Below, piece by piece: positions 8,806 to 49,237 of a stretch of DNA of 64,000 nt; position 1 is the first letter of the stretch; each line of letters starts with the position of its first letter. The notes beneath the pieces are model-generated. The model did not search any database. It saw only the letters and a program-made list of their open reading frames with translations, and was not told where the DNA came from. The position numbers and the translations under genes were made by a program. Source of the stretch: Lepidurus packardi (Eukaryota > Arthropoda > Branchiopoda > Notostraca > Triopsidae); contig JAKZAN010000002.1 of NCBI GenBank assembly GCA_023053545.1, forward strand, positions 11,404,790-11,468,789, in the 5' to 3' direction.

Positions 8806-11800
8806 ATGAAACTGAAAGAATCGGCTTCAACGGGCTCCATGGTAAGTTTAATTTCATTTTGATCTCCTTAACTTTTTCGGAAATAATTCCTCGAAACAAA
8901 CCTGTATTGTTGTGTAAAAATGCACTCTACATTCCACGTGACAACAGTACACACGGAAATATGTGGGTACTGTTACTCATTACATACTGGAAGCGTAACA
9001 GGAGTGTATAGGCATGCACAACTTCCTTCCGCCAGTTTGCCTACGTATAAAAATTATCATCTTCATTAACATGCTGCGTGTGGTGTGCTTTTTGGCTACC
9101 TTTGTTTGTTCGTAGTGCAAACTTGCTCAACTTCCCTTCCTGTGTCACTGTATTCAAAGGAAATACCTTAAAAAGTTCGTTACTCACCTGTCGACAAAAG
9201 GACTGTGGGTCTTACGAGTGTTTTAAGAACCTATAGGAGCTTTGTGACGATTTTCATGGTATTTTCAAGTCAGATAGTTAACCTTGTGCTTATCTCCGTG
9301 ACACCAAAACAATCGCCTTGGCCTGCTAACTGTAACTTGTTTCTCCTATCCTCTAAGGTGTTTCTTGTTTTTATGACTTTGTGTAGTTCCGTACGTTAAC
9401 GATGTACCTATATGAGCAACGAGTTACACGTCAGTAAGCTAGCCTAAGACTTTATGTGGACTTTGTGAGCGGAAATTCTTTTGCCTTCTATTCACGGATG
9501 GGGTGCACCTTGACTTTCTCCCTTAACATGCCGGTTGTGTCATGCCTATCTCAATAAGCTGAAATTGGAAAGGATGGCCCCATAACGGGACCTTCGTTTA
9601 GCTCTAACACTTATTCAATGCGGGTGCAAAATGTCAGTTATTTTGCAGCAAGAAACTCAACAAAAGAGGAAAACTACTTAAATTGCAGCACGCCTCTGCG
9701 AGCGCATGAAAATGCTAAAGAATACGCAAAAGCAAAAAAAGATCGACTGATTACAATGTCTTTTAATTTTTTTTTTTGCAGGAAATGGGAGAATACAATC
9801 CCGCCTATGTAGGGGAAGGGATACCAGCGGGAAAATACAACAGCAATGCACCTCCACCTTCGTACGGTACAGTTAAAGTCGCGGTAAGTCTTCCAGAACA
9901 TTACGGTTGACTAGTAGGTTATTTTACTAATTCTTTTTTCGTCTTCAAGGCTCAACCCGATGACTCTGAAATTGGTGAAAAATCCGATGCCCCAACCCGA
10001 GATCAATGGGGAAATCCAATCGAGTTTCTACTCTCTTGCATTGCCATGTCCGTGGGTTTGGGAAACGTCTGGCGTTTCCCTTTTACTGCTTATAAGTATG
10101 GAGGAGGTGCTTTTCTCATTCCCTACCTCATCGTACTTATGTTCATTGGAAAACCTTTGTATTTCTTGGAAATGGCACTCGGCCAGTTTTCCAGTTTTGG
10201 TTCAGTCAAAGTGTGGAATGTCGTTCCTATTGTTAAAGGTACGAATTAGGAATTATTGGTTAGCCGGTGGTGCGAAGAACGGATAGATTAATATTTTTAA
10301 AAATTCAGGAATCGGATATGGCCAAGCTTTAGCGACATGGTTTGTCGTCACGTACTATTGCAGTTTAATGGCACTGACGGTATACTACTTTTTCGCCTCC
10401 TTTGCTGCCGTGTTGCCCTGGACAGTCTGCAACCCAGACTGGGCGTTAAGAAATATATCTTGTTATTCTACTCTTAGCAATGGCACGATTTTGGGTAATG
10501 CAAATACTAGCCGTGCTGCATCTGAGATATATTTCAAGTATAAAGCTTCTCAATGTACTGTAAGCCATTGCTAATCATGCTTTTTATAGTGTGGAAGTTC
10601 TGAACAAATTGGATGACATTGATAATGGCATTGGCAGTCCTGAGTGGAAATTGACCTTGTGCCTTTTATTCTCCTGGATTTGCATTTTCTTAATTCTCAT
10701 GAAGGGTGTGTCTTCTTCCGGTAAAGTAGCTTATTTTACCGCCCTTTTCCCCTACGTCGTCCTCTTCATTTTGCTCATCCGCGGAGTTACTTTGGAGGGC
10801 GCCTCGATAGGTATAATGTTCTTTATCACGCCACAGTGGGGAAAACTACTTGATCCGGGTGTAAGTACTTAGTTCTGTGCTCCGCTGCACTTAAAAAATT
10901 GGTACAAAGTTGTCATTATTCCTCTCTATTACAGGTTTGGTTTGCTGCCGTTTCGCAGTGCTTCTTCTCTTTATCGGTGAGCTTTGGACCGATCATTATG
11001 TATTCAAGCTATAATCCCTTCAAACATAGAATTTATCGGTAGGGATATTGAAGATTAATGTCGGCAGTTTAACGGTATAATTATATGCTTTTATTTGTTG
11101 CCAGTGATTCTATGATCATCAGTTTTGCCGATACTGCTACCTCCCTCTTGGCCTCCTTCACCGTTTTTGCGATCTTGGGCAACTTGTCGCAAACGTCTAA
11201 CAAAGATATGACTGAACTCGTTAAAGGTAAGCCATCTCAACTCGGATTTGCCTCTTCCCTAAACATGTCCTTCTACAGGTGCTGGCACTGGCTTGGCTTT
11301 TATTTCCTATCCTGAAGCGATTGGAAAGTTCGATATAGTCCCACAGGTAAAACCACAGCTTTTCAAGGTCAACTCTTTTTTTAATGATGGATTGAACAGC
11401 TCTTTGCAGTGCTATTTTTCTTGATGTTGTTTACGTTGGGAGTTGGATCCGCCGTTTCTCTTACGGGTTGTGTCATTACCATCATTTGCGATCAGTTTCC
11501 TCACTGGAAGAGATGGATTGTTACCGCTGTCATATCATCCGCTGGATTTTTACTAGGCCTTGTCTACGTAACCCCGGTAATAACTTGTTATATTTATAAA
11601 CATCATCTAAGCAATAGTAGGATTACTTATATTTGTGTAGGTTACTTATATTTTTCCTCCTTTTCTGTCATACAGGGTGGGCAGTATGTCTTGGAAATCG
11701 TGGATACTTTCGGTGGCGGTTTCATCATTTACGTCATGGCAATCATTGAAATTGTTGCCATTAGTTGGATCTACGGAGTCAATAACATTATTCGGGACAT

Positions 11801-12342
11801 TAAATTCATGACCGGCGTTAGCCTGGGAATTTACTGGAAATTTACTTGGGCAATCTTCATCCCCATATCCCTGTCTGTCATTTTTGTGTACTCGATGGTC
11901 CAGTACAAACCGATTGAAGAAACGAAGTCCGATACGTATACATATGTTTACCCTTCCAGTTCTATGGGTAAGCTCATTTATACTAAATAACTATTAAGTC
12001 AACCTAATTTCTAAATGCATCCTTCAAATCATGATAGCTGCTGGCTGGATATTAGCTTTAGTAGCTATAATTCAAGTACCTATTTGGGGTGCTTGGGTCG
12101 TTTACAAACAGAAGCGAGGTCATACCTTCATGGAAGTACGTACTTTCCATCTCAAGTTTTTTTGTTCAGAGACTTAATCTTTTTTTTTTATATTCCAACA
12201 GAAATTGAAAAATAGCTTTCAATTCACGGATCAATGGGGACCCAAAGATCCTCAAGTTCATCGGGAGTGGCTGCTCTTCCGAGAAAATAACCCACTTCCG
12301 GAAAGTCTTTATAGTAAAATCAGACGACGTCTACTTCAATGA
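8806..12342 (+). CDS. SLC6 family cation-coupled amino acid transporter (NAAT-like), paralog 2
   Basis: Twelve coding exons: 8806-8841, 9782-9883, 9950-10238, 10309-10537, 10590-10860, 10935-11038, 11105-11226, 11279-11346, 11400-11576, 11676-11967, 12038-12135, 12202-12342, giving 642 aa. The ATG at 8806 has a strong context (CCACCATGA) and a GTAAGT donor 36 nt later; the first intron is 940 nt. TM1 has [13 protein letters not shown]7 has FADTATS, with the same Asp at the Na1 position as paralog 1. TM8 has [15 protein letters not shown]. Most introns fall at the same places as in paralog 1, showing tandem duplication; differences are an extra intron near IYR/DS, loss of one in TM7 and loss of one after WIYG. 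TM6 reads [13 protein letters not shown]: Ser replaces the usual Gly and Pro follows FG, next to the substrate pocket, so specificity may differ from paralog 1. Confidence 0.93.
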
Positions 12343-13537: not shown

Positions 13538-15058
13538 CTACAAGAAAATTACAGGATTGTAACGCATGATTTTGGCGAAGAAAATCCAAAGTATGCTCGC
13601 AGAAAGCATTAAGGCAGCACCAGCCCATCCAAAATCCATGCTCCAAGCCACAGAGAAAGTTCGCGTATGAATATACTCCGGGTTAACTTCGTCCTCCGGA
13701 ATACCACAATCACGTTTAGATGTGCGTTTAAAGTACATTATGGTCAAGGTAAACGATGCAAAAGCAGCTGAAAGATTTAATCCCAGAAAAATTATGATTG
13801 AATAGATTTTTTTGAATGATGAACTCTTATTTGTATACCTGATAAAAGAAACATTACTCCCGTGATCAAGACAGCATTAATTTGCCGTTTCACGATACCA
13901 AAAATTCCCAAAAGTGAAGAAGACCCGAGTAAGATCAAACATACCAGAGCACAAGATATAGATAGGTTGTGCATTCCTAAACAACAACATACAAATCAAC
14001 TAATAAACATTCTACAAAAAGTTTTCGTATATATTACTGGACGGCGCATGTTCATTTCTGTGTCCTCCTGCTGTGGAAATGACCACGTTTTCCTCGGTTT
14101 CTAAATTGTCCATATAATTTGTGCATTTGGCTCGCTGAAATCCCATCTCTCTCAGAATCCGAAGCTCGGAATCTAAATTGTCTCGGATTAGAGTTGAATC
14201 CTTCGATTTTTCCTTTGGTTATTTTCCTTTGAATAGTTTTTATCTCTTACCTAGAATATCCAAACAAAGATGCCAAATGCCGCCGTACATAGGAACCAAA
14301 AACATGAGATTCACATCACGTACTCCCCGCTGCAAATGAGCTTGATTGTCCTTCATCTGGAGCTGGCTGCCATCGTTCACAGTCGCTCCGTTTATTTTCA
14401 ATGAACTTGATCCACGCTGCAGTGTGGAAGGCAGTATTGCTCTTTTCCGTCGAAAGACCGACGCGGAAAGGCTTTCAGCCTCGTCGTAGCTATCGTAGTT
14501 TTTCTCCAGTTCCCAAGAATCCTGAAAGTTGTTCTCGTTGCCGTCGTATGGCAAAATGCCTTGTGCGCCTTTTGACTTTTGTAGAGATAAGCTAGTAGGC
14601 TGGGCGGACAAGAAAACAGAGTCCCCATTACGACGCTTCGTTCGAGGCATTTCATTTCCGTGTACTTCACTATGAACTGTCACTTTACTGGAGTGTTGTA
14701 GCTGGAAAGCTGCTGCAGCAGCGGGTGCAAGGGGCGGAGCGCCTGTTTTGTACACAGCAATTCGAGCCACCTAGTCGAGAACATAAGATCAATACCAATT
14801 CATTACATATTTAGGTAGAAAAAAGTAATGATCACTAGTGTGAGGTACTACTTTGCCTTCGAAGAGCCAAGTAACACGCTGTGTATCATTGTGTCGATAA
14901 GCGATGAAATTGACCCGTGTGACGTTGTACCGCACGAGTTCCCAATACGGCGTAAATATAGAGAAACACAGCAAGGCAGAAGCTAATCCCGTCAAGCTTA
15001 AAGTTGAAAAGAGACAAAGAGCACTAGGTTGCACGAGAGGCTTTCGCTTTGAATCCAT
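13538..15058 (-). CDS. Claudin-superfamily tetraspan with very long first extracellular loop
   Basis: Four exons on the minus strand: 15058-14852, 14770-14251, 13976-13839, 13767-13538, giving 364 aa. TM1 is near residues 15-35 (LCLFSTLSLTGLASALLCFS). TM2 and TM3 come from the third exon and the start of the fourth (ISCALVCLILLG, then AVLITGVMFLLSG). TM4 is WAGAALMLSASILWIFF. The hallmark GGIWHLC (about residues 232-238) matches the claudin G-x-W-x-x-C pattern. The first loop is about 200 residues against about 50 in classical claudins. It contains an Ala-rich run, an RTKRR site and an RRKR site (residues 176-179) that fits furin. A long loop recalls the TMEM178-type members, but I cannot assign an ortholog. 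It probably acts in plasma-membrane junctions or as a channel accessory subunit. It is divergent from the claudin-superfamily gene at 16508. Confidence 0.8.
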
Positions 15059-16507: not shown

Positions 16508-19500
16508 ATGCCTTGCTCACCAATTTCGTTATCGCTAGCTACTGTGGCTGCCGTAGTTTCCGTGGCCCTTTTAGCCATCGCTTTTTCAACAGACAATTGG
16601 ACTCACGTTAAAGTGAAACGATCAGAAGTTGAGGTACAATGGACACATTTTTAGTCAACTTTCCCTTCAACTATCCCCTGAATTCTGTATCTTAAAATGA
16701 TAAAGGAAAAGAACAAGCAAGTTTCGAATCTTGTAATCAGGGAAAGTCACGGTGGTTTTTTTACTTTTAATTCTGTACTTTTTGTTTTTTCACATTTTTA
16801 TGTGATTATGATGATAGTAAATGGAATAAGGACATGGCTGGGTGATTTACCTCTCACCTGTGCCAGAAATGCATAACGCGTTTGTTACTGACCTCCCTGG
16901 TTGGTAACTGTTTAGGGATGAGCTCCAGACCTTGAAAAAATTGCCACCAAAACGCCGCCTACTTGGTTAAACTCGTTTCCTTGTTCGCTTGTTCGGTTTT
17001 TCTCTCTATTTTTTTTTTACCAAGGACAGAAAGGCGACATAGCAGAATAATTAATTCTCCCGTTAATGAAATATTGGGAAAGTCTAAGTAGGCGTCTCCC
17101 TCACCATTTTTTTTATTGTTGGCGTTTCGATCTTGGATAATAAGCATACAGTAAAGTAAGACTTCCTGGCACATTTAAAATAATTGCTTTCCTTGACCTC
17201 GATTTCAAGAATAGTTTTAATTTTTTTCATGGTTTTACTGAAATTAAGTAGCACATTACGTGCTACCTTTCTTGTCTGTCACATACCTAGAGCAAGGTCG
17301 AGTCGGTTTCGTGTCTCTCCGTGCAACCCAATCTTCCGTTAAATCATCTGTCTGTTACAGAGTCCAACGTGTTCACCTGACATATTTTATACATATTTTT
17401 TACGGTCGGTTATTTTTGCCGTGACGACCTTGAATTAAATAATTTCAAGTTAATATATGTATATTATTTTTCTTTCTCTAGCAATTGGTTAACTTACGTG
17501 GGGATGAAGGCAAACAAATCAGCAAAGACGAATTTGAAAAGAACTTTTGGTACTTCACTCGTACCCGAGGCTTGTTCCGAATTTGCTTCCCGGAGACAGT
17601 GCCTATAGGAAGTAAGTAATCTTAAGTTTGTAACGTGTCTTATTTATTTTATTATTATTATTTGTCTCGGATTGCGACGTGGGCAATAGCAACTGGGACT
17701 ACAGGGAGATTCTATCAACTTTTAACAAACCAGTTAGCATGTAGACCGGTTGTGGCGTAGAACATCCTTATGTGCTATTTCGCCTTCTCGTGCCGTGATT
17801 GCACATTTGACGTCACTCTTTTTTAGGAGCTCTGCTTATGACACTATCTTTAGTAGACTTATGGATGGCGTGATTGGTCTAGGTACAAGCCAATCTCGTC
17901 AAATGTGAAAGAACCTCCTAAGCAGATTGAGGGATGAATAATAATATAGGCCTGCAACCGAAACATGTACTACTATTAATGATACCCAAACTATGAAGGT
18001 CTAGGCTAGGTTTACCTAGGGGTAAGGTTTGAAAGTTCCTTGCTACTTATAATGTAGTGTAGACGGGAAGTTCAAGGGCGGTCGAAGCGACAACGCTTAA
18101 TGAGTTTTGGTATTCGCTAGCGTAACATAGAGATAGGGGACAACAGTGTGGGAATCGATATATTGGATAACAAAAGAGTTGAGAAGATATATGGCTAAAG
18201 TGTCGTCTTAGCATTACTAGGACTTAAAACCCCCACTTCATTTTATGATACAAGCCTATAGGATGAGCCTTTTTTTCCCTCCACGACTATAAAATGGTGT
18301 AATCCAAGTATTCATTTCGCTCTGTGGGATTCTATCATATTTTTTTTTTTTTTGCTTTAGCGTTGTTCGTCCGTGTTTTATTCTGGAAAACTAGACATTG
18401 CGTGTTCTAAAGTTTGTGTCGGGAAAGGGAAATTTTGCTGTGGGAAAATGAGGTTGCTGTGTCAGAACGGACATGATATGCTATTAGGGCCAGCAAAATC
18501 TAGTTGGAGAGACTTCGAAGACTTTTTCAATTCGATAAGACATTAGTTCCGCTAAGCTTAATCTAGGTTAATGTTAGCGAAAGTATTAGTGTTAGCTCTA
18601 TAATATCCATGCATTTGGACCCAATTTCAGAAGTTTAGGATCGTCAAATCTTGATTTCGTCAAGATTTTTTCTGAAGAACGTGTAAAGAATCGCGGTTAA
18701 ATGATCGTATTGAAGTGCATACTGGGGGGCTATTTTGATTTGTAACGGTAAGTTCATCTTTTTGGACGTTTCCTGTTAACTGTTTAAGGCTAGCGAAGCT
18801 GGCTTTTCAATCAAGATCTGGAACCGAGTGCGAGGTTGGATGATCTAGGTTAGTTGAGCATATCCAAAAGCGACCTAAAAGGTGACCACGCTTTTTCGGT
18901 TTACACGAACGTCATAGCCAGAAGCCCAAGAAGTAGGTTTGAGGCGTTTTTACCTTTTCTGGCTGACCAGCGGAATAAACTCTTCTTCTTATTGACTAGC
19001 TACTCTCTACCAGCTTTACTTTACCTTACGGGTCAGCTAACGGGAATATAGGACAAGGTAGGAAGATGTGTTCTTTGCCATACAAGAATCGAGTAGCTGT
19101 ACTTGCGACTAACTGGTAGCCGTTGATTCGACGTGGCGAAAATGCCAAATTGTAATGGTAGTGAAGTCAGTAAAGAGCGTACGACAGTGCTAACTTTCAT
19201 ACTTTTTGCGCTTTCTGACCTACTGCCTCGGTTTTCCCCAAAGCTACTGCCCACTCACATCCTACGAACATAGCTTAGGAACGCCGTTCTTTTTGTACGA
19301 AAAGAAAAAATACACCTAAAAATTGATTAACCTTTCCATGTACTTTAGCTAATTACTTCCTTCTTGTAGTATCGACGTATCGATCGCCAGTGGAAACCAT
19401 GTGCACAAATGTGGATTACTACATTCCAGATGACCGCGAGAAAACGAAGAACTTTGACGAACCTGCATTGGCTCATTTACGTAAGGGTTTCTCTAGTATG

Positions 19501-21137
19501 TTCCATCAACGGATCTAGGCATTGTTAATTCCTTCCCTGTTCATTAACTTTGCGTCGTGAGGGTAACATTTTACTTTACGCCTTGCGTCGTATAGGTTTA
19601 TTCGTTTCTCACCTTTGTTGTGCGTAAGGGCGTTTCCGTGGGAAAGCTTTTTACATTCTTGTTTAATGACTCGGAAATGCAAAGGTCAACATTCCCTGCG
19701 ATAGCGATTGTTCATCTTATAGCTTTTTATTGTGCGTTTATATTATTCCCCCCTCTTTTTTAGATATGGCCCGTGCGATGATTGCCCTCTTCATCGTTTC
19801 CTTCTTCTTCGATTTTGTGGCCTTTTGGACCGGTGTTGTGGGTTGCTGGCGAAGATCTCCGGCCAACGTTACCACCACAGCAATTCTCATGCTGATGGCA
19901 TGTAAGTTATGTTCCCTTAGTTCCGCCACTTCTGATTTCGGAGTGATTAACCTCAATTCACTCAATGTTTCACAATCCCTTGTCTGAAACTCAGCCGCAA
20001 ATGGGTCCTCGGCTGTTACATTTCGGATTGCGGTGCATCAACTGTGGGAGCTGCAATCAAATAGATACCTACTGAATGCATTTTTAGTTCCCGCTAACCC
20101 GATTCTTTTTTCTATTTATAGGTTTGTTTAGCGCTGGGGGAATGGGGCTTTGGCATGGTGTGGAATTTTACGAAAACGAGAAAATGGGCTCAGAAGAATA
20201 CGCTAAACCGGACGTAAGTTTAAGGTTCTTAGTAAGCGAAGCGGCATATCCTATAATGGGAACTATGCGCCGTGAAACACCTTTTCCTTGTTTATTAGTA
20301 TATTACGAAGGATACGAAGAGGGAAAGTAGTAAGGCTTCCGTTTCCGTTTAATGTTCGTGTAGGTTTTCAAAGAAACTTCGAATTTTTCAATGTTTGACT
20401 ACGACTACGCATGGTCGTTTGTGTTGGCTTGGATCAGCGTAGGGCTTTCTTTGATTTCTGCCATCTCCTTTGCTCTGTCTGCCTTCTTTATGGCAGGGGA
20501 AATTGCGGAAGTCAACAGATCCGAACACCTGTCATACGTGATGCCAGGTACTTTGTGCTGTCATTCCAGCCCAGCCTTTTGTTTACAAGCCGCATAGAAG
20601 CGTAGTCTGTAGTCTGCGGCTTTTATTATGGGGCAAACGAGCTCAAAGGTCTTAGTCTGTGTGTTGTTGTTGTTGTGTGTGCGGGAGCGCGGTTATAACC
20701 AAAATGCTTATATGTTTGTCCGTTCCCCTTTGATGGTTACTTTGTAGGCGCTAAAGCGTGCTCCTTTGGGCGCGTACCAAGTTGCGTACGACTGGTCGTA
20801 CATTATTGCGTGGATCGGGGTAGGCTTTGCCTTGCTGTCATCCATTTTATTTTCGTGTGCTGCCATCTGCCTTCGTCGTGAGCGGGAAAAGGAGGAAGCC
20901 ATTAATATGCAATATTTGATGCCGGGTTAGTTGTTTTAACATCTGTTGTAGATGGTTGCCTGCTTTGTGCTTGCCTTATATTATCCTTTAACCTTTTTTT
21001 CTTTTTACTGAGAGTTTCAGTGTCTCATCATGCTTTTCTGCTTTTCAGTTTACCCACAAAAACAACAGTATGCCTATGGATACGCTTATCCTGGACCATA
21101 CTACCATGGCTCACAGTACGGACCCTACAATTATTAA
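16508..21137 (+). CDS. Claudin/PMP22-superfamily tetraspan with mutually exclusive TM4 exons
   Basis: Constant exons are 16508-16633, 17482-17611, 19370-19480, 19764-19901, 20122-20213 and 21049-21137. Between the last two lies either exon A (20364-20547) or exon B (20748-20925), giving 289 or 287 aa. The start is CACCATGC at 16508. TM1 is LATVAAVVSVALLAIAF followed by NW. GLFRIC is the claudin-type loop motif. TM2 is ALFIVSFFFDFVAFWTGVVG; TM3 spans the ILMLMA/CLFSAGG junction. TM4 follows a YDYAWS or YDWS turn and is encoded by the alternative exons. The C-terminal tail is Tyr/Gly/Pro-rich (YAYGYAYPGPYY) and may be a ligand for cytoplasmic partners. Introns are long in the 5' half (848 nt, 1.76 kb). 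The protein probably forms or modulates epithelial junctions. The family is clear; no ortholog is assigned. Confidence 0.88.
20364..20547 (+). other. Mutually exclusive exon A (TM4 version 1)
   Basis: 184 nt, entering in phase 0 and leaving in phase 1, with TAG acceptor and GTACTT donor. It encodes YDYAWSFVLAWISVGLSLIS and ends in SYVMP. Compared with exon B it has an acidic post-TM segment (GEIAEVNRSEH) instead of a basic one. Confidence 0.85.
20587..20682 (+). promoter_or_regulatory. Stem-loop and UG-rich tract in the intron between exons A and B
   Basis: AAGCCGCA (20587-20594) pairs perfectly with TGCGGCTT (20615-20622). About 35 nt further on, a TGTGTGTTGTTGTTGTTGTGTG run (about 20658-20681) forms a UG-rich element in RNA, the kind of site bound by CELF/Bruno-type splicing factors. 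Its place in the 200-nt intron between two exclusive exons suggests splicing control; the role is inferred. Confidence 0.4.
20748..20925 (+). other. Mutually exclusive exon B (TM4 version 2)
   Basis: 178 nt, phase 0 to phase 1 like exon A, with TAG acceptor and GTTAGT donor. It encodes YDWSYIIAWIGVGFALLSS and ends in QYLMP, clearly homologous to exon A. The segment after the helix is basic and charged (RREREKEE). Using A and B together would shift the frame, because A leaves in phase 1 while B must be entered in phase 0. Confidence 0.85.
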
Positions 21138-22657: not shown

Positions 22658-22807
22658 ATTAACAAATCGGAGCTAAAGTTATATTCGCCTTATTGCCAGT
22701 TTATTCATTTGCAATGCACTTTCTTTTGTTGCCGTTCATATTCCAATCGTACATACAACGTAATTTAAGCATGCATGTGACATTCGTATGCTCCTAACAA
22801 CAGTATA

Positions 22808-23058
22808 TAATGGTACCTCGACATACGAGTGCCCCAACATACGAGTTTTTCGAGATACGAGCCGGCGAGCGAGTGATTTTTTGCTTTGAGTTACGAGCGA
22901 AATTCGAGATACGAGTTCGGTTTAGCAGGTCGGCCGGTAGCGCGCGTGCGCGGCACCGCCCACCACGGCCAGTGAATCACTTAGCTTCGAGATACGAGTA
23001 ATTCAAGATACGAGCAAGGTTGCGGAACGAATTAAACTCATATGTCGAGGTACCACTG
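22808..23058. mobile_element. Non-autonomous Tc1/mariner-type MITE, about 251 bp
   Basis: The two ends are inverted repeats: over 22 bp (with flanks) 22804-22825 and the reverse complement of 23041-23062 match at 20 positions, sharing TGGTACCTCGACATA. Each end is bordered by TA, the target duplication of this superfamily. The inside is a run of diverged CGAGATACGAG motifs around a GC-rich core (about 22930-22970) and has no transposase frame. The GGTACCTCG...ACGAG end sequence is of a type common in animal mariner-like elements. Confidence 0.8.
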
Positions 23059-26000
23059 TATAGGTAAACCTAGTGTCCGGGCACAGTATACCTTTGGTTA
23101 TTTACATGTGACGAAATTATTGCCTGTTTGTTATTACCTGTGAAGAAATCCCGAAATATTACGTAAAATGTTTTGACCATATATAAATCAATTTTGACTA
23201 TATGCAACTTTTAAGCACAATTTCTACATATACAGCTTAGTAGTTTAGTTAATAATTAATTTATAGCCATTTAATCAGGCCCCACTTTGAATCGGTTCGA
23301 TTCCCACACAATGGTATAAAACTCGCCTGGAATTGGTCCAGCACGCCCTGCTAGGTTCCAAATCTTTCAATGGCTTCATTTGAAAATACGAAGGTCAATA
23401 GATATTTTTGTGCAGTTAACATCTTACAACTATTATGTAGGAAAAAGCAAAAAATATGAATAAAAATGCAATGTCGATGTCCTTTGACATGCGGGTAAAA
23501 TTCTGACTTGAAAAATTTGCAATTTATGTTCATTTTGAATATAATATTTGACGTCGTGAAAACTATTACGATTCAAGCTCTTTGCTACCATGACATGATC
23601 AATTTCTGCAGTATTTCCCTAAAAAAAAGTAATACTTGAGAGTGAATTTTAGTTGAAGAAAGAATGTCAAATTTTAGCAGGATTAAGCAGGATTAAGTTA
23701 CATAATGTTAAGTTAGGGTAAATTAAGTTACTTTTTGAACGCATAAGCTATGTTAACTACTATATATGACTGTCTCGTGTTTACTTCTTACGTGCCTATG
23801 TTTGATTGTTGTGAAACTCGTATCGTTTGTATCTCTTGCAATTTATAGTGCGATGTTCCAAATATAATTTATAATCATATATTAAAATCATCTTATAATC
23901 ATATTATTAGATGTTCGAATATAATCATGACTTCAGGCTATGGGAACGATTGCGCTCCGCTGAAGTGAGGATTTTAAGAAAGTTCAAGTTGATTGTAATT
24001 TATTACGATAATCGCCAAGCGACTTCCTACGTGATTTAGTCGATGTCACGTTTAAACAAGTTGCCAAGGTTACAGGAAAATTGCCACACCTAAATGTACG
24101 GATCTTGGAGCCGTGCAATGCATTTACAAATTTGCTTATGTGGTAGGCTCGATTGAGCGGGCCAACATAGTTGCAAAATAGCTTATATAGATACAGTCCT
24201 GGAACAGGTTATGAAGTAGGTATTAATAACGGAAAATTGACTATAAAACGCCCTTGACGAGATGGCGGATGGAACGAAGTGATCAAATCGCCCTCCCGAG
24301 AGCACACGGCTTTGTTTGTTCCCGTTTGCCTGGAAGGATAGGATGAAACGGCTCTTTTTCGTCGCTGAGGGCCTTCCCACACCCCACCTGTGCTTTTTAC
24401 CTGGAGAGTTGGGTGTGCTGGCTTGTTCCTACCTTTACCACCAGTCCTCTACCAGCTGTTATACGTTGTGCACGGACACGCGAAATATTGCGGTGAAATT
24501 TTACTTGTATCGTTTGTTATTCAAACCATTACCAAACGTCAAGTTTTCTATTAACGTTATAGACATCCGTATTTATTGTCTTGGACAAGAAAGATTTGCT
24601 GGATTTAAAAAAAAAAACTGTGTGCAATCCTATTTTACCAAAGTTCTGAACCTGGAAGAAAAGGTCATCTGTACAGCAGTTGGTTTCCAAGTTCATTTTC
24701 GAAGTTAACTCCATTGGAACAGTGCAGGATTAATTTTTCTTACTGGATTTCTTTAAAAAAGTAAGTGCCTTATGCCGTTCCATCCAACTTGTAACATGTT
24801 AACCTATTTGCCTTGTTGTTAAGGTACATAGTTTTATTTATTTATTGTCAACCTTTAGGGTTTTTGCGCGCATGACCTTGTAGCCTCTGGCAAAGCACTT
24901 ATTCGCGTTCCAAGAGACCTGAATCTCATAAGTTGTATTTTTATAACCAATGTCCAGCTTTCTCTGTGTCTTACAAGGTCTTGCTCATTTTGCGTTATAT
25001 GTTGGCTGCAAAAATAGGTCTCTCGGTTAGGAGAAAAGCCAAAGGCTGCAGCGCTGTGCTGGATTCAGATGCTTGGCTTGCTGCTGCTGCTATAGCGCGA
25101 GCTGTGTTGAAAAGAAGTAGGACATGAGGACGATGGCCTACCTTTCTCTTCTGGTTAGATTTTCACGTGATTTCAGGGGAAAAGTAATGTCGGGCTTTTA
25201 ATTGTATGCTTTGTGTGTACTGCCGTGGACATTCAGTATTTCATTCGAGAACAAAAATGTCCGTTTCACCCCGCTGAGTAAGTTGATCTTGGCTTCCACT
25301 TGCTTTAAAACAAACGAGAGTCCGTGCTTCACTTGTTGTCTTGTCCACTCATCCATCGCCTATTTCCCGTTAGTCTCGGTTCAAGGTCCAGTTTTTCCCC
25401 GATTCTGATCAATTTAGAGTAGGCAGTTGTACACTTACCTTCGAGTAGAAATGCTCATTTAGAAAGGGTTAAAAGTGATGGTGAATTTTTTCACAGAACC
25501 ACAGAAAAGTGGTAGATTTACGTAAAGGGTGATAGAAGGTAAGCACCCTTCACTTTTTCTTTACCTTGGTCTGAACTCTGTAATGAATTTTTAGAAAAGA
25601 AAGGTTGTTAGGTGTATGCTGGGTAGTTTCGTAAGGTAACCAAGAGCCATGCAATAGTAGAAAGCAAACAAGATTAGTCCAGCCATATTTTGGCTATTTT
25701 TTTACGTTGCTGGCCGTTCTGGTGACCCATTTCCATCCATGTCTACAGCCTTCCCTTGGGTGATTCCGGGTTTTGGGCACCAACCGAATTTCCCACCGCT
25801 ATTTTCTCTTTGTGTACGTGTTCTCGACGTATTTTCTCCTCGTCGGTATTTCGTTTCCAGATCGACGACATATGGAAAGCATCCCCCTGTGCTTTCATGT
25901 TTGCTAGATAAGGCCAGACCACCCCTTTCGCCAAAAGACAGCTGTACTAAGTTAAGCTCTATGCATATTTGCAGGATCGAAAGTACCCTCCCTCCACATT

Positions 26001-27698: not shown

Positions 27699-30553
27699 AT
27701 GGGGCAGGCCGGCCGCACAAGGTCTGGCCTTGCCAGAATGGTATTCGTTGTTAACGTCTTCATCGTAATGGTAGCTGGAGAAGCAGAGAGTACGGATTGG
27801 ATACAGACTGTTCTTGCTGAACGGGAATTTTACAACTCGACGTGCGCCCCAAGAGCTATCTGCAAAATCGACAAAGTAAGTGGTCCTCGCTTCTCTTTTC
27901 TAGTCCGACCGCTTCTAAATGGGTGGAAGTTTTCTAACGGTACCATTTTTGTGGTTTCTAGGGCAGTCGCATTAGCGATTCGACTGATTGGAAACTTCGA
28001 AACTGCATGTGCGATGATCTCTGCGCCACGTTCGGCGATTGTTGTCCAGATGCCAAAGCATACAGAGCGGAAGAGCAGCAAAGTGTGGACAGCCATTTCA
28101 AATGCATCGTGTCCCCGAAATTTGGGGGTAGCATGATGATTGCCACCTGCCCCGCTCCCTGGAAAGACGAGCAAACCCGGCAGTTGTGCGAAGCCGAATG
28201 GAACACTTTAGAAATCGCGCGTGACCCGCTCTTTGCCATGCCCGTGACGAGCAAAACGACTCGGCTATCGTACAAGAACGTCCACTGTGCGGTGTGTAAC
28301 GACGACACACCCGAGCCGAATCTACAGGGAGAACCACAGTTGCGGTTTTGGTCACCTCGCTTGGAATTTACTGGGATCAGCAATACCGATCCACGTTTGG
28401 TGAATGCTAGCTCCAACTTGTATTGGAACCAGGAGCGGGAGTCTTGGGGGTTGGATCTATTCGACAAGTACACGGGACAAATTAGTTTCTACAGTTGCCT
28501 GCTCCAGCCACATATACCCGATGATGTGCAACTCTTTGTACGTCCTTGTCGCCCCTACGAGGGTCTGTGTCCAGACAACTATACCAACAAAGACGTCCAA
28601 ACCAAGTGCGAATCATACACGTCGTTAACCTACTCACGGAATAAGGTATACCGCAATATACACTGCGCCATTTGCAATGATGCCGTTCTGGAAGACCTGA
28701 CGTGTTGGGAGCAGAATTACGCCCGAGAATCCAGACCTGGATTGGGTTCGGCCAATGCCTTTGCCCTCCTGTTCGATCTTAATGATGCGGATGGGTCTGG
28801 GGAGGTGGGCCAAAGGAAAAAGTGCGGTGCAGCGGAAATGTACGATCCGTTTGCCAAGCGTTGCCGACGAGTTCTGTGCCTCGGGGCAGGCCAATCTTAC
28901 CGGCAAGGCAAATGTATTGATCTAACTACTACAACAACGACTACCACATCAACAACCACATCTTCCACAACAACTCTTCCTGCCAATATTACCTCCTCGA
29001 CTAGCCCACCCACTTCTACCACCAGCTCTACGACGACTGCCGGTACCTCGCCCAGCAGTAGTACGTCGTCGACCACAGAGTACGTGCCTGTTATTTTCCC
29101 CGACGAGGACGAATACCCAACTGATAAGCTCGAGGAATCGACTGCCAGCGCTGCCCCTACAGCTCTTTCAGTACCAGCGTCGACTACCGTTGCCAGCACC
29201 TCCGCTCCCATTCTTGGGTCAATCGCCAATGTCACGGAGATTACAACTCTACCGTCCACGTCTACGACTCAGATTGTAGATACCACAACTACTCACGAGA
29301 ATAGCTCGGAACACGCGAAGGTGGAAGAGTCTGAATTCGCAACTTGCCCCAAGTTCCTACTGGCCAAGGATGAAGTGCAGTTTGGAGAGAATGGCACCTT
29401 GTACGTTCACGCCTACGACAAAACTTTTTATCCTGGCGAGTACACCCTCCACTACGAGGGCGGCGTGTTCATTTGTGCCGTGGGAATGACCAACGTTCCT
29501 AAATTTGATCCCGTCCTGGGCTGGATTACAATCGCCGGCTTGGGAGTGTCGGAAATTTGTTTGGCCCTCCATATTATAGCGTCCGTTATGACACCTGACT
29601 TGCATAATTTGTCTGGGCGCAATGTGGCGTCGTTATCCGTTGCCTTGTTTGCAGCGTATGGTTCTTTTATGGCTGTCCAATTCGTCTCGCCCGCAAGTGA
29701 GCCCAACAGCAACGCCGGGTGTGTCACGGTTGCCGTTTTGACGCACTACTTCTTCTTGGCCGCCTTCTGGTGGACGTCAGTTTTGGCTTGGGATGTCTGG
29801 CGCACTCTGAGATTGGCTACCGTGGAATTACGCGCCCCCAGTGGAAAGCAAAATGGCAAATTCATTCTCTACTCACTCTGGGCGTGGCTGGGACCAGCCA
29901 TTGTTGTAGCAGCTGCCGTTGTGGTAGATTTTGTGGATTTGGGTACTTTTGTCATTCCTCCCGAGTTTCATCCCCAGTTTGGTAGCCATGTCTGCTGGTT
30001 TGGTCAACGCAAAGCACTGTTGATTTACTTTGCAGCGCCTCTGGCGGCCATTTTGGGCGTCAACCTCATTTTGTTTCTGTGCTCGGCCTACATGATTCAC
30101 TCGACGACCAACAAGGCGCCTAGTTCCCCTGCTTCCAACTCGAGCCACATGCAATCCCGCAAACAACTTGGGTTGTATGTCCGTTTGGCATTGCTCATGG
30201 GCTTGTCTTGGGTAGCGGGATTGATTGCCGGAGCAGCTGATTTAACACCCCTTTGGTATGTCTTTGTGGCGTTGTGCTCCCTACAAGGATTGTTTATTCT
30301 ACTCGCGTTCACGTGCAACCCAAAAGTAATGCGCTCTTTGCGGAACCGGGCCTATTGCTGCGGAGCTATTCGCCGTCGCCGTCCTTCTTACAAAGCGGCT
30401 CTGGTTGGCAGTGGAAGCAATACGGGAGGCAATCGGCGGTCCGGTTTGGAACCCCGAGATTCGCACGATTCACAAGCATCTAATACGTCCAATACCTCAG
30501 CATCCACTTTAACGAAAACGACAAGCACACTCAGCAACTCCAGCAGCCGCTAA
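27699..30553 (+). CDS. Adhesion/methuselah-like 7TM receptor with somatomedin-B and mucin-like ectodomain
   Basis: Two coding exons, 27699-27875 and 27962-30553, give 922 aa. A hydrophobic segment after the basic start (MVFVVNVFIVMVAG, about residues 14-27) is the likely signal peptide. CMCDDLCATFGDCCPD (about residues 72-88) is a somatomedin-B signature. A Cys-rich ectodomain follows, then a Thr/Ser run (about residues 380-510) that should be heavily O-glycosylated. Seven membrane segments run from about residue 575 to 850. The class B (secretin-like) signs are GCVTV before TM3, VCWF in the second loop and the SLQGLF motif in TM7. The pre-TM1 segment resembles methuselah-like receptors; I see no clear GPS cleavage motif. 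The tail is basic, then Ser/Thr/Asn-rich. It should signal at the plasma membrane through G proteins; the ligand is unknown. The 2.6-kb single exon contrasts with its intron-rich neighbours. Confidence 0.9.
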
Positions 30554-31883: not shown

Positions 31884-34800
31884 TTACACGCGACTAGCAT
31901 ACCTCTTATACAAGGATAAATCAGAAGCAGAGGGTTGTACAGGCCTCTTGGAACCACAATCAACATAGTTGGCGTACAAGTCCAGCATACTCTTTTTGAC
32001 CGCTGGCATCGCTACGAAAGTCGTATTGTCCAAGCAAATCAGACTACGCTGGACCAAACGTAGGCAGCGGTTCGTTGGTCCCAATGTGGTACCTGATGGG
32101 CTTGATTGCTCGGCGACTTTGGCATACCTTTAAAAAAAAAAACAATAATAATATAACTAAAACCAACATTTGGTTAACCAAGTAATGGTAAAAATACCTT
32201 CTGTAGAGGTGCAAGTCACTCCGATTTGGTGTAACCGTTTCCACGCCATACGTTGCCAACATACATGGGAAAAGCTGTTTAAAGGTCAATGGTTTCTTTT
32301 CCTCCTTGGTGCTCTCGGAAGATTCCTTCTTCAACATAATATACCCGTCCTCTTCATCTGGCGAGTCTTCAGATTCCGTGCTGATAACAGTTACAATCGT
32401 GACGCAAACGCCTCTTGAATACATTCTCCCTTAAAAAGTACCTTGTACCCGATGCTGTGCTTCCTGTAGAACTATGGCCTGTGAGCGAAGGGTTCTTCAT
32501 GATAGGATTACCCTTGCTCTTGCTACTCATCTCCTCGCGCCTCTTCCCAAGGCGAATCCGGACAGAAAAGGGGCTAAAATTGGTGGTAAAGTTGGGCATA
32601 AAATCCCTGAAGTATATTGATTAACAAAAGTATAGCAAATAACAAAATAAGCAATAGTTTACCGAACGGAATGCAATATCGTATACGCAAAAAGGTCTGC
32701 TAGTATCGTAAATTCGTACGGACGGTAGTACTCGTAGTACCCGTCAATGCGAATATCTTGGAGAGGGAGGGGCGTGAGAGAAATACAGCGTTTCTCCACT
32801 TCAGACAAGGGCAACGGCAAAAACTTGACAACCTGCTCGTCCCACCACTGCGTATAGCTCCTGAAACTTTTCCTTATTGTCAATGGGTGGTGCAAGAGAT
32901 AGTCATTGGGCAATTCCCATATGGGAACTTTGTGCTGATCTGGCACAAAAATGCCCAGAAACAAGTTCATGGCATTTTGTTTGTCGGCATCTAAATGTAT
33001 CAATAGAGGTTGTGAAAGAGAAAAGAGATTTACAGTCTAAATGTACTACCTGAAAACGTGTTGGAATAGTATCTGCTCAGTGTTTGCATGATATCGTTGC
33101 CTTGAGACGTCCAAGGTGCAATACGACGATAAGTTTGAATACGATGTACCAATTGGGAGCCGCCATATTGCAAAGCCAAGGTATCGCCGTGATCCTCATA
33201 GAGTTCTTCCAACATTCGCACGCAATCCGAGTCAAACTCTAGGTGAGGTTCATCAATAATTCCCAAAGCGTACAACTAAAAGCAGGACCTAGTTGTTAGC
33301 GTTTTCTGCGTAAGACTTAGATTTTTTTTTTTTTTTTAAAGTGGTTACCTGGTAGGCTAAAGCACACTTCCCAATAGCAAACTGTGCCGTGTTGGTTCGA
33401 TCCAAACAATCGACGCAATTCACGCGGATGATTCCAGTTTGTCTCCTTGGCCAACGATCCGATTCCAGACTCGCTTGGTTTAGGGATGCTGCTTTCATCA
33501 TTGGCACGGATTGGGTAAACAACTCTTCCAGGTCTTTGTGATGAACTAGTGGCGAAAGGGTATGGCTGTGGCAAAAGAGTGGTCCTTGGTTCTGAAACAG
33601 ACCCGTTCGGCGGATGCCAATAGAGGCAATATCCGCTAACCTAGCCATTACGTTGACGTCCTTTCTATAATGAAACTCCGTTAATGCACATGACAACAGT
33701 AAACTGCAAATGATAAGAAAATGAGAGTTTACGTACAGCTTATTGAGCCGAGCCATATCAAAACCAATGTATTGAATATGATGCGTAGGAGGAAGAAACT
33801 GATTGAGGTACTGGACAGCAGTCAAATACTCGTCACTGAGGATGCTTTCCTGACGTTTCTTTTCCCGTTTCTTTACCAAGTTTAAAACAATCACCGGTGA
33901 GCCATAGCGCTTCATGAGTTGTAGAAAGTGCAAGCCTAAAGTGAGACGTAGTACTTGGTTTTCCAAAACGATTCATTAATAAAGTAAAGCAACCTGGAGT
34001 TTGGGCGAAAGGATCACTCGTGTCAATTGAAATGGTAGGTTTGGGGACCATTTTGACCACATCTTGGCTCCAATGTGCCGGAATGGAACCGCGCAATTGA
34101 ACATACGAGGAATATCGTCCTTGAGACCAAGATGATACGCATGACTCGTGCAGAATTTGTTCAGTTTCAACTTCATTGGCCACGTCTCCCTTTAATACCA
34201 TAATATGTTTAATCTTTAAATTGATAAAGGTTACGAATTACCTCATTATTAGCACCTCGCTTTAAAAACCGCGTTCCAGCATAGCGATTGGACCGGCGAG
34301 CAATCAAAGTAAGGTAAATAGGTTTGGCGAAAACGCTAATATTGGATTGACCCACAAAACCATGAGTAACATACAGAAGCCAATCTGAATGTAGCATATG
34401 CTCCACTGAGCGCAGCAAGTAATCATTCCAGACGAATTTCCTATGAGGTGCCGTTTGGATGCCCCAATCTGTTGCTGGAATATCGCAAATGTTCACTTCT
34501 TGGCAGCCTTCTCGAGACGATTGTCGCAACTCTGCGGGCAAAGTCAAGTTATACTGGACAGTATGGGTCAGATCATAACTATAACTATACGAGAAATGTG
34601 CAAGTTTGAGCCAAAAGAAGAACGAAATACACATACCTAAAGTAGAAATTTGAGGAGAGATCTACGCTTTGGAATAGTTTGACGTATTTGGCTTCATCTG
34701 GATGAGCTATGCGAACAGACTCATTGGGAATGTAAACCATGCTTGTTTCCTCGATTTTATAAATCGTGTGGTAACCAACCAGGGCTATTCGTCGTCGCTT

Positions 34801-35278
34801 GGTGATAAGGATAATATAGTATCCTTCCATGAATTTAACGAATCCTAATATAAAGAAAACTATACTCCCGCTTTTGATAGAGCCAGGCTTATTCATACCT
34901 ACAATACCGAATGCAGAAACAGCTCTGCTAAACCCAAGATTGTTTTTCCGACGAGGTCTGTTGCCCACGTCAATCATGCTCAAGAGGTCTCTAACTTCTT
35001 GGTGACTGTACTCCATCAAGTCATCCACAACAACAAGGTTTCTAGCTTCTGTTCTATCAATTTTTAGTACCCGAAACCTTGTTTGTGTGTTGTTTGATCC
35101 CACCAAATAGAAACGCTGATTCATGGAAAAGAAAAGAAATATACTACTTTTATACACCTTGGATCTTCTGACGACTTACTGCTTTCGTTTCATACAAAGC
35201 CATTTTCTGAATTCCACTGACGAATGGATGAAACTTGAAATCTTTCGCTTTCTTGAAATTCTCTGGTGATGAAGACAT
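31884..35278 (-). CDS. FIG4: FIG4, phosphatidylinositol 3,5-bisphosphate 5-phosphatase (SAC domain)
   Basis: Twelve exons on the minus strand: 35278-35180, 35115-34899, 34844-34637, 34584-34242, 34189-33994, 33935-33737, 33664-33349, 33275-33050, 32990-32663, 32606-32442, 32380-32198, 32127-31884. They give 907 aa, the length of human FIG4. The N-terminal segment [21 protein letters not shown] and the run SNFYFSYSYDL are family hallmarks. The SAC catalytic loop CVDCLDR (C-x5-R, from about residue 504) is intact, so the phosphatase should be active. [22 protein letters not shown] follows it. FIG4 works with the kinase PIKfyve and the scaffold VAC14 on late endosomes and lysosomes to control PI(3,5)P2. 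The acidic [16 protein letters not shown] region near residue 775 is the usual variable segment. It shares a 244-bp promoter region with TMEM192. Confidence 0.97.

Positions 35279-41330: not shown

Positions 41331-49237
<7,907 letters not shown>

Follow-up and report, generated by a model that had tools for sequence, protein, structure and literature searches.

Can one gene supply two four-helix membrane proteins that differ in their last helix? The question is raised by a locus on contig JAKZAN010000002.1 of the notostracan Lepidurus packardi (assembly GCA_023053545.1), analysed here in a window of 64,000 nucleotides (positions 11,404,790 to 11,468,789, forward strand). The gene carries, in tandem, two versions of the exon encoding the fourth transmembrane helix (TM4), exon A and exon B. 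Judged from the sequence, it is probably a single-locus, TARP/stargazin-like gene within the PMP22/EMP/MP20/claudin superfamily, in which a tandem-duplicated exon is used in a mutually exclusive manner, and A and B very likely form a pair of this kind that is in use.

The coordinates of the coding exons are collected in Table 1. All introns of the gene are of the GT...AG type, and exons A and B both keep an AG acceptor and a GT donor. A sequence-only reading had described two homologous exons of 184 and 178 nucleotides within 20364..20925, sharing phases 0-in/1-out and joined to an upstream exon ending at 20213 and a downstream one starting at 21049. Coordinates and splice sites bear out the sizes, the phases and both junctions, and the span takes in both exons. 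The predicted protein is 289 amino acids long with exon A and 287 with exon B. As the same reading had claimed, joining A to B shifts the frame: a stop is met inside B at codon 305, 44 nucleotides 5' of the last junction. Skipping both yields a 264-residue product with a foreign end, devoid of TM4 and of the tail. The frame therefore survives only if one exon, and not the other, is spliced in.

The homology of A and B is borne out by sequence comparison. Their proteins, only about a third identical, align globally with a BLOSUM62 score of 88, against a mean of -24.4 (standard deviation 9.8, maximum 27) for 2000 shuffles of B. When the exon A protein is searched against the host assembly (108.6 Mb, 344 contigs) at E <= 10, the two matches are itself and exon B (8.6e-6), a loose first pass having let through just these two candidates. 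Exon A retains a score of about 50 bits when the window group is excluded from profile training. All seven genome matches of the B-form protein (E <= 0.001) lie at this locus. A TM4 profile, which itself contains both window exons, was run over all window open reading frames (ORFs) of at least 25 amino acids: it retrieves B (1.5e-30) and A (2.6e-17) and no further TM4 exon copy, the next-best ORF (0.0086) being part of the neighbouring minus-strand gene. At a claudin-superfamily locus on another contig (L010 on C5), the best TM4-like ORF has an E-value of 0.001 and no duplicated pair was seen. Exon B is 92% identical over 49 columns to relative P0001, in which the tail is identical.

The sequence-only reading had also suggested looking for the exon pair in related arthropods, and pairs of like kind are found across winged insects and springtail-like proteins. 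The relatives considered are 147 different proteins, the union of the best 120 matches from each of three protein searches (E <= 0.01, 422 and 453 hits; E <= 1e-10, 476 hits among 7997 candidates scored); those that are named among these matches belong to insects, springtails and crustaceans. By profile, 139 of them contain one TM4 segment and eight contain two. The latter, all with ncbi or nr labels, come from Papilio xuthus, P. machaon, Danaus and Choristoneura, from Megachile and Cyphomyrmex, and from Asbolus and Trypoxylus; in 8/8 the A-like segment precedes the B-like one, matching the order in the window. Window exons included, 49 segments are A-like and 108 B-like, with flanks that commonly end in NVQYIMP and NMQYLMP, respectively. 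The class labels were set by eye and then checked by profiles built on them; these reproduce 156 of the 157 labels, and the only disagreement concerns window exon A, which was left out of training. This check is lenient, as most rows were also in training, and leave-one-lineage-out profiles are stricter. Lineage labels of P0030, P0047, P0039, P0053, P0060, P0078 and similar entries were assigned by sequence similarity and judgement.

That both choices are made is seen in relatives as paired proteins. In the matched pairs P0024/P0030 (read assemblies), P0039/P0053 (springtail-like) and Plodia isoforms X1/X2, all differences (26, 33 and 26, respectively) fall within residues 200-257. In the pairs P0078/P0090 and P0060/P0072 the tail is fully common, and the exon region holds 31 and 36 differences versus 5 and 4 outside it. 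The count of such pairs is best taken as a lower bound, because the database is clustered at 90% and the overall identity of P0024/P0030 and of Plodia X1/X2 is about 91%, so that many pairs may have been merged. In malacostracan crustaceans two TM4 types occur, found in different species. The idea of two tetraspans from one gene agrees with the first three of these pairs, whose members differ only inside the exon; it is not peculiar to one gene. By extension, both choices would be made in L. packardi.

Both forms match the Pfam family PF13903 (PMP22/EMP/MP20/claudin), with 107.3 bits for A and 114.7 bits for B against a curated cut-off of 29.1. The structure model of Plodia isoform X1 (a B form; pLDDT 79.6), standing in for the window protein, possesses four helices and an extracellular β-sheet after TM1, with strand β5 at residues 207-211 and TM4 at 213-252. 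The best PDB matches, by sequence as by fold, are TARP/CACNG proteins; identity in the structural matches to TARP/CACNG-GSG1 is only about 13-22%, and gamma-5 chimeras are matched by sequence with E-values no better than 2e-4 to 9e-4. On this model and these matches, fold and sequence appear nearest to TARP/CACNG proteins and not to tight-junction claudins. The earlier label of a claudin-family protein holds for the superfamily, with TARP/CACNG as the nearest members. Likewise, the swapped region does comprise TM4 and its cytoplasmic flank, as proposed, and according to the Plodia X1 model it would also comprise β-strand 5 of the second extracellular segment.

Several observations weigh against the favoured reading of the L. 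packardi gene. In leave-one-lineage-out profiles, window exon A is tied between the A and B classes (49.8 vs 51.0 bits), and it forms the longest end branch (1.29) among 118 segments. The structure model of the A form is poor (pLDDT 64.5) and finds no match in the PDB at E <= 0.001. Clustering of A/B-specific residues on one face of TM4 is not significant (helical moment over 27 positions, p 0.13). Nonsense-mediated decay of an A+B product is not assured, because its stop lies so close to the last junction. Finally, 3 of 40 single-TM4 A-class proteins continue beyond the donor of exon A and terminate within the next 2-15 residues, which means that exon A may at times be a terminal exon.

A single origin of A within winged insects is supported by sequence comparison: leave-one-lineage-out profiles place 35/36 winged-insect A segments in the A class, and P0078 with them. 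The same profiles place there 1/8 springtail and 0/3 malacostracan A segments. Trees were built from 55 columns, on sets of 118 and 47 rows and with a short free search. In the free tree of 118 rows, insect A, P0078 and window A fall on one side (support 86, not starred), and the malacostracan second TM4 type falls on the side opposite to insect A. Constraining insect A alone gives a tree 7.7 log units below the free one (p 0.29), and constraining all A segments, malacostracan ones included, gives one 8.6 log units above it (p 0.67); the all-A constraint exceeds the free search by 6.6 log units in the 47-row set. When each lineage's own A and B are instead held together in the latter set, the likelihood changes by +2.5 log units for the window, +5.3 for springtails and +7.0 for malacostracans (p 0.59, 0.70 and 0.77), and by -6.6 for Hymenoptera, -11.8 for Lepidoptera and -11.2 for Coleoptera (p 0.22-0.24). 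None of the six groupings tested is rejected (p 0.22 to 0.77). As the all-A constraint and the first three of the lineage-own constraints beat the free search, likelihood cannot separate a single from a recurrent origin; a single deep origin of A is not established by the trees, in which no lineage-own grouping is rejected either.

It is quite conceivable, if short of probable, that one exon was duplicated recurrently in several lineages rather than once in an early pancrustacean. The profile results for springtails, malacostracans and the window exon point that way, as do the unrejected trees pairing their own A and B. Against this stand the consistent assignment of winged-insect A segments by profiles from other lineages, the gain obtained with the all-A constraint in both sets, and the constant order of A before B in the window and the eight double models. 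The more ambitious reading makes the splice switch older than the divergence of springtails, crustaceans and winged insects. In this view, a TARP-like auxiliary subunit trades its partner-binding portion through the switch, a single gene thereby serving two channel complexes, and true flies, Drosophila included, would have lost the switch. Taken as a whole, this is unlikely. Loss of A in flies is hinted at because 6/6 named fly proteins among the matches listed are B forms; no Drosophila protein is among those examined. Were the ancient switch real, such a loss would account for its having gone unnoticed.

A less favoured explanation, and an improbable one, is that exon A of L. packardi is a drifting relic, with only B used there and the pair functional in insects. 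Besides its long branch and its equal distance from the A and B profiles, the exon lacks two residues that are otherwise usual, a D preceding the conserved W and a C close to the end of the helix, and the nearest relatives, P0001-P0003, are B forms only among the matches listed. A relic would hardly be expected to keep 61 codons free of stops, intact AG and GT sites, a matched phase and the W-S...AW core, or to retain its score against profiles from which the window group was left out.

It is very improbable that exon A is an alternative terminal exon, with its own stop and poly(A) site, instead of an internal mutually exclusive exon. P0101 (Gryllus), P0117 (Rhodnius X3) and P0136 (Nicrophorus X3) do end shortly after the exon A donor by read-through, which suggests a third isoform without the Tyr-rich tail; among the double models, the B copy of P0121 likewise continues past its donor; in the window, reading through the A donor adds 15 residues before a stop, and reading through the B donor gives a stop at once (MPG, then stop). 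However, the common tail is present in 37/40 single-TM4 A-class proteins (including P0030, P0053 and P0061 of matched pairs), and the window donor CAG/gtactt has 7/9 consensus matches. That A and B are two cassette exons or an assembly duplication, either of which may yield an exon pair, is extremely unlikely: nothing found speaks for it, the frame is broken with both exons and with neither and, for an assembly copy, the two proteins are too different, being identical at only about a third of positions.

The sequence-only reading had seen an acidic end in A and a basic one in B. The flank following TM4 in the window has a net charge of -2 in A, in agreement with the former, and of 0 in B, which despite its many charged residues is thus neutral on balance and not basic. 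Across the classes, the mean net charge is +0.18 for A and -0.64 for B (unweighted, window rows included), and an acidic/basic switch was discarded as a general rule. The idea that A is simply the fast copy is also weak: with weighting applied, B is the less variable of the two in 15 of 27 columns.

Splicing signals offer a few candidates for how the choice is made. Among the seven acceptors, that of exon A has the shortest pyrimidine run (5, with 13/20 pyrimidines), and B is tied with the last exon for the second shortest (7). The TGTG/TGTTG density reaches 5.0 per 100 nucleotides in the A-B intron vs 0-1.6 in the six other introns, and the UGU-rich tract 5' of exon B is a possible regulatory site. 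RNA structure between A and B was rejected as the exclusion device: the fold of the intron is no better than that of shuffles (z +0.83), and the four inverted repeats found are short or imperfect. Steric exclusion is not favoured, given an A-B intron of 200 nucleotides. With the frame admitting one exon only, the choice between A and B would be regulated by cell type or stage, and loss of frame would disable the products with both or neither. The swap of β5, TM4 and flank would then change the docking partner or the gating effect, TM1-TM3 and the tail being kept constant.

By analogy with TARPs, such a partner switch is a tentative proposal. Receptor binding in the gamma-8 complex is ascribed to helices TM3 and TM4, with Ex2 as the bridge between them; TM4 stays in persistent contact with the receptor through its lower half, and one TM4 contact shapes rectification (PMC8826358). 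The same source describes an extended β-strand 5 that rigidifies Ex2 in type-2 TARPs (PMC8826358), and assembly of gamma-2 is reported to be determined by TM3 and TM4 (PMC5599240). Since the part that contacts the partner channel in TARPs is the one swapped here, A and B may differ in partner choice or gating.

Claudin-10 and claudin-18 each have two isoforms per gene through alternative first exons, covering TM1 and the first loop. The present gene resembles them in that exon choice would give two isoforms of a claudin-superfamily protein, and differs in that the swap concerns the last helix rather than the first exon. With TARPs and CACNG-GSG1 proteins (stargazin, gamma-5, gamma-8, GSG1L) it shares the four-helix fold with an extracellular β-sheet, though at low identity in the structural matches; the literature searched yielded no alternative TM4 exon for TARPs. 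Another likeness is to TMEM114, TMEM235 and TMEM178B, claudin-superfamily tetraspans whose names appear as automatic NCBI labels on P0029, P0035, P0071 and P0102. As in arthropod ion-channel and Dscam genes, the exons are tandem, homologous, similar in length and equal in phase; in contrast to these, the product is a tetraspan resembling an auxiliary subunit, and a whole membrane helix is exchanged together with one strand. Mutually exclusive tandem exons are stated to be enriched in ion transport genes (PMC9741552), and cassette splicing of transmembrane-helix exons to be unlikely (PMC5740500). The criteria given in PMC3228551, namely neighbouring exons of similar length and same phase that are homologous, describe A and B (184 and 178 nucleotides, phase 0/1). 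For genes of the claudin/TARP type, no description of an alternative exon for TM4 was found in titles and abstract starts, published fly exon lists lying outside this search; isoforms X1 and X2 already figure in automatic NCBI annotation. Among mutually exclusive exons the case is apparently undescribed, and widespread.

Table 1. Predicted coding exons and A-B intron of the gene (window positions).
Feature	Position	Strand	Basis
Coding exon 1: start codon and TM1	16508..16633	+	Open frame, donor GAG/gtacaa, family profile 1.5e-19
Coding exon 2: first extracellular segment, RTRGLFRIC	17482..17611	+	Splice sites, profile 1.9e-10
Coding exon 3: extracellular segment, SPVETMCTN	19370..19480	+	Splice sites, profile 1.1e-12
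Coding exon 4: TM2 and first part of TM3	19764..19901	+	Splice sites, profile 3.3e-26
Coding exon 5: remainder of TM3, phase 0 end GAC/gtaagt	20122..20213	+	Splice sites, profile 1.1e-11
Alternative exon A: β5, TM4, flank to SYVMP, 184 nt	20364..20547	+	Phase 0 in/1 out; homology, profiles
A-B intron, 200 nt, with UGU-rich tract 5' of exon B	20548..20747	+	Motif density; candidate regulatory site
Alternative exon B: β5, TM4, flank to QYLMP, 178 nt	20748..20925	+	Phase 0 in/1 out; profile
Last coding exon: common Tyr-rich cytoplasmic tail VYPQKQQYAYGYAYPGPYYHGSQYGPYNY and stop	21049..21137	+	In frame after A or B

The gene lies head to head with a divergent claudin-like gene (13538-15058, minus strand) of four inferred exons and 379 amino acids, with a long first extracellular part and a Claudin_2 match (E 0.0002) below the curated cut-off. 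Further upstream, exons of a sodium:neurotransmitter symporter occupy 9911-12177 on the plus strand (Pfam SNF, E 1.9e-33 and 2.8e-27). On the 3' side, a short inverted-repeat element (22804-23062) has 27-nucleotide terminal arms that are 89% complementary and inner 'gagatacgag' repeats; it has 25 matches in the host genome; 9 are close to full length, with 97-100% identity, and in several others the two ends are paired around a longer middle. It has the look of a young miniature transposable element and may derive from a longer one by deletion. At 27962-30553 on the plus strand, one open frame of 863 codons encodes a secretin-family seven-helix domain (E 4.3e-23), with a sub-cut-off somatomedin-B match at its start; these domain matches make it a receptor of the adhesion type, with a long exon free of interruptions. 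Exons with homology to the SacI/synaptojanin N-terminal region follow on the minus strand (33292-35175), and at 46668-48774 on the plus strand Pfam finds spectrin repeats with a weak EF-hand match after them, a domain order that we take to be that of alpha-actinin.

If the switch is used, the gene would provide a natural experiment on the fourth helix of the claudin/TARP fold, performed with two proteins identical outside about 60 residues. The role of the TM4/β5 face as selector of the partner channel or of the gating effect would become testable in animals whose single gene covers both roles. The pair would also be a new entry in the catalogue of mutually exclusive exons, one that the fruit fly, the main splicing model, may lack.
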